A stretch of 64,000 nt of DNA. It comes from Pseudanabaena sp. PCC 7367 (GTDB taxonomy: Bacteria > Cyanobacteriota > Cyanobacteriia > Pseudanabaenales > Pseudanabaenaceae). The notes under the pieces were generated by a model. The model saw only the letters and a program-made list of their open reading frames with translations, did no database searches and had not been told where the DNA came from. The translations under genes and the position numbers were made by a program. Shown here piece after piece: positions 15,100 through 20,324 of this stretch; the first letter of the stretch is position 1; the number at the start of each line of letters is the position of its first letter. Location of the stretch: NCBI RefSeq assembly GCF_000317065.1, contig NC_019701.1, positions 2,075,001 to 2,139,000 of the forward strand. The letters run 5' to 3'.

Positions 15100-16236
15100 T
15101 TAACCGATCTCACATTCCGCCAGCTTCGCCATAAACGCCTCCACCTGGCCACGCAACTCATCCGCATTAGAATCCTTGGCCTTATCCCAGGCCGCTAACC
15201 ACACTGGGGCTGGCAAATGGCCTTCTGGAGCTACATTACGATCGAACGCCACATCCGCAGTCCTGATCCAAGAACCACGGGTACGCCAACCGAGGCGATC
15301 GCCAAAATCCTTCCAGCTCTGGGTCGCCTTATCTTCTTCGACCACCGCGCCAAAAATACTACTGATATCATCATCCGCCGAGGTAGATGCCGCCACCGTC
15401 TCTGGTGGTAGCAATTGCCGCAGTTGCTCCGATGCCTTAATTTGATCCGCCTTCTGAGCCAACACAAGCTCCTGGGCTTGCTTCACCTCTTTAATTACGA
15501 TCGGTGCCAGGGCGCGATAGGAATTATTTTGATTACTCACCGCTCCTTTGACAGCCTGGACTGTCTCTCGCCATTGCTTCAGCTCAAATTGCTCACCAGC
15601 CTTATAGAGTTGATCGCAGATTGCTTGCAGATTTTGCCGACTGGTGGGGCGATCGGGTTGTTTGAAGAGTTGCAACATATCCCGCAACTTCATTGGCACA
15701 TCGGTTTGGAAGAACATCGCCATTGCCCTGGCCTCATCCGAGCTTTTGCCCATTGGCGCTGTGGCCATCGTTTGTTTAGGCATAGTGGCAGTAGCGGCAG
15801 CAACCGGTTGTTCAACTTCCCTTGCTTCCAACCGAGCGCGTAGCTTCTTAAAAATCGGCTCCGCATCCGCCAGAATCGAATCACCCACCTCCTGACTCAG
15901 GCCATAGGGGCCCTGGAGTTGATCTAATAAATCCTGCAACTTATCAAAGGCGCTAAGAAATAGGGTTTGCAGATCTTGATCCACATTCATATTTTTGGTG
16001 TCGCGCAGCACCTTAAAATAATCTTCCAGGTTATGGGCAGTACGTTGCACACTGCCGATCCCCAGCATCGCTGCCCCCCCTTTGATTGAATGGGCAGCCC
16101 GAAACACCTCGTTGATCGCTTCCGGATCAGACATCATATCCTGAATATTCAGCAACCCCTGTTCGATCGTATTCAGGTGATCACGGGCTTCTTCAATGAA
16201 GTAACCCATTATCTGCTTTTGCTTTTCTGGATCCAT
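15100..16236 (-). CDS. Hpt phosphotransfer protein carrying the C-terminal half of a GUN4 domain
   Basis: 378 residues. Residues 1-105 are a histidine phosphotransfer domain with AAHSIKGGAAMLG; His49 is the expected phosphoacceptor. A linker and an all-helical middle region (about 165-275) follow, which I do not recognise. Residues ~306-342 (SWKDFGDRLGWRTRGSW ... APEGHLP) match the second half of the GUN4 porphyrin-binding domain. The first half is absent here but ends the upstream protein, 85 bp away. There is no kinase or receiver domain, so a partner histidine kinase must act in trans. The pair is probably co-transcribed and may work as a complex; this is inference. Confidence 0.82.
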   Translation of the reverse strand: MDPEKQKQIMGYFIEEARDHLNTIEQGLLNIQDMMSDPEAINEVFRAAHSIKGGAAMLGIGSVQRTAHNLEDYFKVLRDTKNMNVDQDLQTLFLSAFDKLQDLLDQLQGPYGLSQEVGDSILADAEPIFKKLRARLEAREVEQPVAAATATMPKQTMATAPMGKSSDEARAMAMFFQTDVPMKLRDMLQLFKQPDRPTSRQNLQAICDQLYKAGEQFELKQWRETVQAVKGAVSNQNNSYRALAPIVIKEVKQAQELVLAQKADQIKASEQLRQLLPPETVAASTSADDDISSIFGAVVEEDKATQSWKDFGDRLGWRTRGSWIRTADVAFDRNVAPEGHLPAPVWLAAWDKAKDSNADELRGQVEAFMAKLAECEIG

Positions 16237-16321
16237 GGTGCAGCCCTCGACTAGCTTGGTAATTTGGCGATATTCTGGCGATCGAACTTAAGATACTTAA
16301 GATTTAGAAGATTTATGAGTA

Positions 16322-16939
16322 TTAGCCTTTATTAGCCTGGAAACTCTTATAGGCACTGCTTTGGACACTGAACCCAAACCGTCCCTGGCTGTAGCCGCGC
16401 CACAGCTGATCGATCGTTTGGAGATCCTGGCATGGCAATTGACTAATATCATCCGGTGAGAGATAGCTGCCTTTATTTTTATGCAAAGCCAGACACATCA
16501 CATTCCAGGTTTCTTGGTTTGCTTCTTGCCAATTACCATCCATGAGTAAATCCTTGAGGCGAGAATAGTCTACCCCTGCCGCAGAAGGCAGTTTGGTCGG
16601 CGTGGCCGTTGGCGTTGAAACTGGTTCAGCAGGGACAGATACGGGAGCGATCGCCCCTGTTGGCGCAGGTGCAGGGCGTTTAAACTTCAGCGTCATAGCG
16701 CCACTAGCTGCACCATCACCTAGCAAAACAAGCTGCCCCTCAGCCGTAATTCTAACCGCGACCGCGATCTCATCTAGTTGCAGATCGCCATTACTGCCAG
16801 CACTTTGGCCAATTTGCTCAACCAGACTAACCAGATGAGCAAGATTTTGTTTTAATACCTGGGCATCAATACTGCTTACCTCTGGCTGATCATTAGCGTT
16901 GTTGAGGCTGGTTTGGATCAAAAATTCTTCGCTTTGCAT
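16322..16939 (-). CDS. Protein ending in the N-terminal half of a GUN4 domain
   Basis: 205 residues. Residues ~50-90 (LQLDEIAVAVRITAEGQLVL...MTLKFKR) vaguely resemble the small Pepco/trypsin-co-occurring domain. A Pro/Ala/Thr linker (about 90-120) leads to residues 122-200: GVDYSRLKDLLMDGNWQEAN, LPCQDLQTIDQLW and GRFGFSVQ, which match the first half of GUN4. The protein stops at QANKG, where GUN4 would continue with its W-x-x-(F)G-x-x-(I/L)GW segment; that segment is at the end of the next protein. GUN4 binds protoporphyrins and stimulates Mg-chelatase, but GUN4-like domains also occur in signalling proteins. Translation is probably sequential from this gene into the Hpt gene. Confidence 0.78.
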   Translation of the reverse strand: MQSEEFLIQTSLNNANDQPEVSSIDAQVLKQNLAHLVSLVEQIGQSAGSNGDLQLDEIAVAVRITAEGQLVLLGDGAASGAMTLKFKRPAPAPTGAIAPVSVPAEPVSTPTATPTKLPSAAGVDYSRLKDLLMDGNWQEANQETWNVMCLALHKNKGSYLSPDDISQLPCQDLQTIDQLWRGYSQGRFGFSVQSSAYKSFQANKG

Positions 16940-19273: not shown

Positions 19274-20324
19274 GGCGTTGTTGCATAAAAGAAACGGAGC
19301 GGTAGGTTATGGTACGTTTTAACTACCATGAAAAAACCCCCACAATACCGCGTCCGCAACTGGCAAGAGTATAACAAAAGCCTCAAACAGAGAGGAAGTC
19401 TAATTTTCTGGATTAGCAAGGAGGCAATAGAGATGTGGCTAGAGCCAGAGCGATCCGGCAACAGAGGCGCATCAAACAGATACAGTGACCAAGCGATTGC
19501 GACGATTGCGATGCTCAAGAGCATATATGGATTGGCAGGCAGACAAGTCACCGGTTTGGTCGAATCATTATTTACCCTGATGAACATAGACTTACCGGTG
19601 CCAGACCACAGCACAGTTTCAAGACGGATGGGCAAATTAGCGATCGAGTTACCCCATCAAAAGACTCAGGCAGCGAGACATGTGGTGGTTGATAGCACCG
19701 GCGTGAAAGTTTACGGAGAGGGAGAGTGGAAAACGCGTCAGCATGGCATAGGTAAGCGTCGCACCTGGCGTAAAATTCATCTGGGCGTAGATGAGTCAAG
19801 CGGTGAAATTCTTGCGGCAGCGGTTACCAGCAACCAATATCATGATGGCCAAATTCTACCTGAACTGCTTAATCAGATTGAGGATGAAATTAAGCAAGTA
19901 TCTGGGGATGGTGCGTATGACCATCGTGACTGTTATGATGCAATCTCTGCTAGACAAGCCCAGTCAGTAATTCCACCACGCAAAAATGCCAAAATTTGGC
20001 AACATGGCAATTGTAAAGCACCACCGCATCCGCGTGACCAAAATTTACGGCGCATCCGTAAGGTTGGTCGTGCCAAGTGGAAACGAGAGACTGGCTATCA
20101 TCGGCGCTCACTGGCAGAGACTACTATGTTTAGATTGAAGACTATTTTTGGCGGTAAGTTACGCTCACGAAATTTTGATAATCAAGCGGTGGAGCTGTTT
20201 TTACAGTGCGTGGCTCTTAATCGTATGATGATGCTATGCAAGCCTGATTCTTACCTGGTTGAAGACTAAATTGGAGAATCTTGGCAGGAGTATTGTCCCT
20301 TTCTTCGATTCATGCAACAAAGCC
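19274..20324 (+). mobile_element. Complete IS5-family element, IS903 group (1051 bp)
   Basis: Terminal inverted repeats are visible: GGCGTTGTTGCATAAA at the left and, on the other strand, GGCTTTGTTGCATGAA at the right; IS903 itself begins GGCTTTGTTG. The element is flanked by a perfect 9-bp direct repeat, ATTAGGTAA, at 19265-19273 and 20325-20333, the target-duplication size of the IS903 group. One intact transposase gene fills it. It sits between moeB and what looks like moeB's terminator (20348-20379). Confidence 0.93.
19328..20269 (+). CDS. IS903-group (IS5 family) DDE transposase
   Basis: 313 residues, close to the 307 of IS903. The DDE residues sit in VVDSTGVKVYG (D), VSGDGAYDHRDCYDAI (D) and YHRRSLAETTMFRLK (E, the Y-R-E motif of the IS4/IS5 superfamily). 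The N-terminus (NWQEYNKSLKQRGSLIFWISKEAIEMW) is typical of the group. No frameshift or premature stop is present, so it may be active. The ATG is 54 bp inside the left end of the element. Confidence 0.93.
   Translation: MKKPPQYRVRNWQEYNKSLKQRGSLIFWISKEAIEMWLEPERSGNRGASNRYSDQAIATIAMLKSIYGLAGRQVTGLVESLFTLMNIDLPVPDHSTVSRRMGKLAIELPHQKTQAARHVVVDSTGVKVYGEGEWKTRQHGIGKRRTWRKIHLGVDESSGEILAAAVTSNQYHDGQILPELLNQIEDEIKQVSGDGAYDHRDCYDAISARQAQSVIPPRKNAKIWQHGNCKAPPHPRDQNLRRIRKVGRAKWKRETGYHRRSLAETTMFRLKTIFGGKLRSRNFDNQAVELFLQCVALNRMMMLCKPDSYLVED

Follow-up and report, generated by a model that had tools for sequence, protein, structure and literature searches.

An ancient split of a GUN4 domain across Pepco and Hpt proteins in the Pseudanabaenaceae

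The GUN4 proteins proper, such as Synechocystis Sll0558 (structure 1y6i) and those of Chlamydomonas and Arabidopsis, are intact single chains that carry an LxNxLR motif and activate Mg-chelatase. In the Ser/Thr kinase-GUN4 fusions (loci L164 of Goleter apudmare and L103-L105), the domain is joined to an N-terminal kinase within one polypeptide. Elsewhere (L176, L180, L190 and L191), a standalone Pepco gene of 115-150 amino acids lies directly before a gene for an intact, caspase-fused GUN4, which suggests that Pepco is a partner of the caspase-GUN4 proteins. A PilL-type CheA kinase with its Hpt (histidine phosphotransfer) part as a separate protein is found in Synechocystis PilL-N/PilL-C (Hik36/Hik43), where the Hpt and kinase parts interact mutually and with Rre6/PilG (PMC7656254). 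The subject of this work is a pair of adjacent genes of Pseudanabaena sp. PCC 7367 in which a GUN4 domain is itself divided, the first part ending a Pepco protein and the last part ending an Hpt protein. The pair lies in a stretch of 64,000 nucleotides (contig NC_019701.1, positions 2,075,001 to 2,139,000), the whole of which is referred to here as the window. It represents an ancient, selected and family-wide split and not a broken gene. Nothing about this gene pair was found in the literature on Pepco, on GUN4 combined with Hpt or on GUN4 domains of Pseudanabaena.

The nearest intact GUN4 domains are those of the Ser/Thr kinase-GUN4 fusions, which are 54-61% identical to the N half, have the same short loop and share a clade (99/99) with the joined split domain, but lack Pepco, Hpt and the split. 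With GUN4 proper the pair shares the fold of the N half and a GUN4 core conserved in both halves, whereas the split form is a paralogue without the motif. The Hpt module of the window and the N-terminus of PilL-type CheA are homologous. However, in PilL-N/PilL-C it is the kinase that is split into Hpt and catalytic core, while in the present pair an unrelated small domain is divided, with one half carried on the Hpt protein. Unlike the Pepco and caspase-GUN4 pairs, the split pair contains no peptidase. As Pepco directly precedes caspase-GUN4 in other genomes, the two are already part of one functional circle.

Domain assignments in both proteins are based on Pfam profile positions and open reading frame (ORF) calls. 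The original prediction, made from the letters of the window, had given the two ORFs with coordinates and sizes that hold: both lie on the minus strand, with the 205-residue gene (gene 1) upstream and the 378-residue gene (gene 2) downstream. The features of the locus are as follows, in window positions.

16322..16939, minus strand: gene 1, 205 amino acids, with Pepco, a linker and the GUN4 N-terminal half; ORF, Pfam, orthologue in 38/38 family genomes
16676..16897, minus strand: Pepco domain, residues 15-88 of the 205-residue protein; PF24393, E 1.2e-15
16337..16585, minus strand: GUN4 N-terminal half, residues 119-201; PF05419, E 2.8e-26, profile 2-86, ending just past the RFGFSVQ helix
16237..16321, minus strand: intergenic gap of 85 nucleotides; range 8-201 nucleotides across 38 orthologous pairs
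15100..16236, minus strand: gene 2, 378 amino acids, carrying the Hpt, a further helical bundle, a disordered linker and the GUN4 C-terminal half; ORF, Pfam, full-length orthologue in 38/38 family genomes
15913..16212, minus strand: Hpt domain of CheA P1 type, residues 9-108; PF01627, E 4.3e-19, His49 codon at 16090-16092
15457..15741, minus strand: second helical bundle without any histidine, residues 166-260; predicted structure and homology to PilL-type CheA
15109..15330, minus strand: GUN4 C-terminal half with closing helix, residues 303-376; PF05419 profile 84-124, E 3.7e-5, and a purpose-built profile

The division of the domain is evident from profile coverage. The Pfam profile is matched over positions 2-86 in one protein and 84-124 in the other, and neither protein holds the GUN4 part of its partner. 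A hidden Markov model (HMM) was built from eight intact GUN4 domains. The N half alone scores 116 bits against it (positions 1-82) and the C half alone 42-45 bits (41.7 in the window; positions 79-143). When the halves are joined in silico, a single match of 168 bits extends over positions 1-143, and it is only in this joined form that the complete GUN4 profile is obtained. The scores are nearly additive on joining in all 11 pairs shown. These results bear out the proposal of the original prediction that a GUN4 domain is divided between adjacent genes with an Hpt domain between the halves. By that prediction, a full GUN4 within the 378-residue protein would have counted against the split; only the C-terminal part is present there, and a full domain is ruled out by the Pfam coverage and the structural model.

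The residues of the GUN4 core are conserved in both halves. Hydrophobic core positions are kept at 0.95 in the N half (0.97 in intact GUN4) and at 0.88 in the C half (0.92 in intact GUN4). The GW, GH, P.PxW and Cys positions of the C half are invariant or nearly so. Pairwise ratios of non-synonymous to synonymous substitution (dN/dS) among 12 Pseudanabaena-type genomes gave rough values of 0.14 for Pepco and 0.08 for the GUN4 N half in gene 1. In gene 2 they were 0.025 for Hpt, 0.08 for the bundle, 0.14 for the GUN4 C half and 0.06 for its closing helix, compared to 0.48 for the linker at residues 140-168. Both GUN4 halves are under purifying selection, and relaxed selection, which the original prediction had considered, is ruled out by these ratios. 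The break falls between FGFSVQxxxY and W..F..vGWR, in the loop that is most variable in length among intact GUN4 domains.

The pair is adjacent, in the same order and with the same break point in 38/38 Pseudanabaenaceae genomes of 8 genera (whole-genome searches), and loss of either GUN4 half was seen in none of them. The carriers include Pseudanabaena biceps PCC 7429, P. cinerea, P. mucicola and P. frigida. The pair is thus not unique to PCC 7367. The Pseudanabaenaceae have been noted to branch early among the crown cyanobacteria (PMC10156173). A gene 2 profile of 369 positions was searched in 390 cyanobacterial genomes, comprising the 38 of the family and 352 others. Among the matches listed, the best 150 or so by E-value, full-length gene 2 occurs only in the 38 family genomes, although a weaker full-length match below these is possible; those in the other 352 reach no further than profile position 336 of 369, with nearly all ending by about position 300, and mostly lie inside CheA-like proteins of 900-2,700 amino acids. 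Searching 84,980 species genomes for a gene 1 pattern gave 25 loci of the Pseudanabaenaceae type, each carrying the pair, and one further match, the Ser/Thr-kinase-GUN4 gene of Goleter apudmare.

Such uniformity bears on whether the split is real in PCC 7367 and whether the products are joined again. If the PCC 7367 genome is viewed alone, the 378-residue protein resembles a chimaera, and a recent rearrangement, assembly error or frameshift could be imagined to have broken an intact GUN4 gene. The identical split in 38/38 genomes, closed ones included, together with a varying gap and frame and with purifying selection, refutes this and leaves it practically no probability; the broken old gene that the original prediction offered as its alternative is rejected as a recent event. 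A different possibility is that the pieces are joined during or after translation by read-through, frameshift or intein-like trans-splicing, with the Hpt inserted in a GUN4 loop. The gene order would indeed yield a single chain of GUN4N-Hpt-GUN4C, and some gaps are only 8-15 nucleotides long, as in the pair at L161:6001-7563, where 15 nucleotides separate genes in relative frame 0. However, the gap extends from 8 to 201 nucleotides (median 91), the second start occurs in frames 0, 1 and 2 relative to the first gene, and gene 2 retains a start codon of its own, in most cases behind a purine-rich stretch resembling a ribosome-binding site. The varying frame and gap mean that no conserved read-through or frameshift joins the genes, and programmed events of this type are ruled out. 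The ends of gene 1 lie 6-12 residues past the SVQ helix and show no intein-like sequence. Joining is therefore very improbable, and the products, as judged from sequence, are two separate proteins, Pepco-GUN4N and Hpt-bundle-GUN4C, with expected masses of 22 and 42 kDa.

The original prediction placed the first half of GUN4 correctly at the end of the 205-residue protein but overlooked the Pepco domain ahead of it. PF24393 scores 58.4 bits here against a curated cut-off of 27, covering profile positions 34-112 of 112. The match is weaker in relatives, and some genera, such as G001 and G008, have none by this profile. Each protein was modelled as a single chain with AlphaFold2 (AF2), and confidence is given as the predicted local distance difference test (pLDDT). 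The Pepco region is predicted as strands around one long helix at a pLDDT of about 60-84. The GUN4 N half, the first 60% of the domain, reaches 93-96 over most of its length and aligns with residues 85-176 of Synechocystis GUN4 1y6i (Z 10.9, root-mean-square deviation 2.4 over 89 residues). At residue 141, the GUN4 motif A-D-x-x-T reads A-N-x-E-T in 38/38 split proteins, while Asp accounts for 88% in the compared intact domains.

In the 378-residue protein, the Hpt domain with His49 that was originally predicted is confirmed by PF01627. Its phospho-acceptor motif FRAAHSIKG is of the HxxKG type, with His49 invariant in 38/38 orthologues. The model is a four/five-helix bundle with pLDDT above 90 and a Z of 17.4 to CheA P1 1i5n. 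A Pfam search found none of the dimerisation, HATPase and CheW-like domains of a CheA/PilL kinase in this protein; as an Hpt protein without a kinase, it must work in trans. The second helical bundle (pLDDT about 89-97) has a homologous counterpart at the corresponding place in PilL-type CheA proteins. As modelled, it may be a histidine-less Hpt-like domain, although its Z of 9-10 to Hpt chains is in a range common for helical bundles. A low-confidence or disordered linker at about residues 280-302 precedes the GUN4 C half. The Pfam match of this half spans residues 303-343 with 24.3 bits, under Pfam's own cut-off of 29.2. Its landmarks are W..F.drlGWR, GHLPaPvWL and a closing helix (about 358-375) ending in a conserved Cys. 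The second half was thus rightly located by the original prediction but reaches further than was stated, to the very end of GUN4 including the closing helix. Modelled alone, it has a pLDDT of about 44-71, and the low confidence of this lone half may fit a need for its partner. A structure search with the 378-residue model listed no GUN4 chain, a result that is uninformative given the low confidence of the C half.

Phylogenetic analysis places the joined halves as one clade (bootstrap 98; SH-aLRT, Shimodaira-Hasegawa-like approximate likelihood ratio test, 91) inside a 99/99 group with the Ser/Thr-kinase-GUN4 proteins. In a tree of the N half only, the sequences group with kinase-GUN4 (SH-aLRT 90). 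The split clade does not group in the tree with L001, the GUN4 orthologue of PCC 7367 itself, which forms a long branch. The Hpt-bundle sequences form a single clade (96/95), placed among N-terminal regions of PilL-type CheA proteins and standalone Hpts from other families. The family's own CheA stands in a separate clade (98/99), which rules it out as a recent source of the Hpt by copying. In the pair, GUN4N precedes Hpt and GUN4C, an order collinear with that of an intact domain. By the simplest account, a GUN4 gene of the Ser/Thr-kinase-GUN4 type with an N-terminal Pepco would have been cut in its variable loop by a PilL/CheA-type Hpt segment before the family diversified, and this segment would have been fused in frame with the downstream GUN4 half.

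Other unusual GUN4 arrangements were observed in the family. A protein of G004 (L187:351-2303) has a nucleoside phosphorylase-type domain followed by two tandem GUN4 domains. A 167-residue GUN4 paralogue of PCC 7367, L006 (G000:C2:315965-316381), has an insertion between helices one and two that divides its Pfam match into a pair of overlapping segments within one frame.

Taken together, the pair is probably an ancient two-subunit signalling module that operates through its split GUN4. It is likely that the two halves assemble, associating in trans to form one GUN4 fold, while the signalling role is a reasoned guess. GUN4 would then act as a clamp for heterodimerisation, holding the Hpt phospho-carrier and the Pepco protein together. 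More tentatively, a CheA-type kinase could phosphorylate His49 in trans, the likeliest candidate being the one from a pil/tax3-like cluster. The CheA homologue of PCC 7367 (C2:1478998) has the dimerisation, HATPase and CheW-like domains, and its pil/tax3-like cluster (C2:1474500-1479840) consists of DUF4388-receiver, CheY, CheY, CheW, MCP and CheA. A PatA- or CheY-type receiver might then take over the phosphate, and the Pepco-GUN4 subunit could perhaps localise or gate the step. A stricter form, in which the clamp is an obligate two-protein device opened and closed by a ligand or by phosphorylation state and so controls a PilL-type phosphorelay, is possible but doubtful.

Several points weigh against the two-subunit module. 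The models were made from a shallow alignment of 18 rows of orthologues, with each protein as a single chain, and this depth alone could account for the low confidence of the C half. A tree of the C half only, with 83 columns, leaves its nearest relatives unresolved. Positions 329 and 331 are among those of the C half that are eroded in the genus Pseudanabaena, and dS is near saturation, which makes the dN/dS values rough. It could be argued that the halves no longer meet, the N half being a free helical domain and the C half the degenerate tail of an Hpt protein, kept together by the operon alone. The lone N half is modelled at a pLDDT above 90, the lone C half has 24 bits in Pfam and a poor model, and some of its positions are eroded in Pseudanabaena, as such a reading would expect. 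Against it stand the purifying selection on the C half (0.14) and closing helix (0.06), its invariant or nearly invariant GW, GH, P.PxW and Cys positions, and the retention of both halves in all 38 genomes; we regard decay of this type as improbable. Somewhat less probable still is a tetrapyrrole sensor, in which the rebuilt GUN4 binds porphyrin or bilin and its occupancy steers assembly or Hpt phosphorylation. The fold would be that of GUN4, and a role in sensing the photosynthetic state has been proposed for GUN4 fusions (PMC7159879). In CrGUN4, the N219G exchange in the motif abolishes bilin binding and leaves porphyrin binding intact (PMC10156173), from which it follows that porphyrin binding is not readable from sequence. 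However, the LxNxLR bilin motif after GHLP is absent: the window reads GHLP-APVWLA, and all aligned orthologues are non-Asn and non-Arg at these places. The clade is moreover made up of paralogues, which have been proposed not to bind bilin (PMC10156173). PCC 7367 carries a separate intact GUN4 (L001), with LSNQIR following GHLP, and a true GUN4 elsewhere together with the missing motif weakens the tetrapyrrole idea. The coupling of tetrapyrrole level to signalling envisaged in the original prediction is so far not supported, given the missing motif and the Ser/Thr-kinase-GUN4-type paralogue. Nor is a role of the split domain as the Mg-chelatase activator, for which a separate orthologue is present.

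The two-subunit module is also consistent with the behaviour of the surrounding genes. In 10/10 longer neighbourhoods (L089-L098), an RNase R/II-type gene precedes the pair or precedes a ClC gene; a ClC channel with CBS domains lies between this gene and the pair in 8/10 and is missing in L092 and L096. In PCC 7367, the RNase gene is about 48 kb from the site it once neighboured and the genome retains no close ClC relative, with the pair intact. That the pair persists despite the lost RNase-ClC context indicates that its adjacency outlives the operon. An ORF of 313 amino acids resembling an insertion-sequence transposase lies beside the region (19328-20269, plus strand), and could have some bearing on how the ancestral operon context was lost here.

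If the halves reassemble, a gene inserted into a variable loop can divide a domain and leave its function intact, and the 38 natural sequence pairs would offer a ready split-domain tool. For the Pseudanabaenaceae, the pair would represent a very old natural fragment complementation, carried by each genome sampled from the family. The half-domains would serve as a recognition device between two signalling proteins, and GUN4-type domains, so far found intact alongside kinases, caspases or TIR domains, would be connected with a CheA-type phosphorelay.
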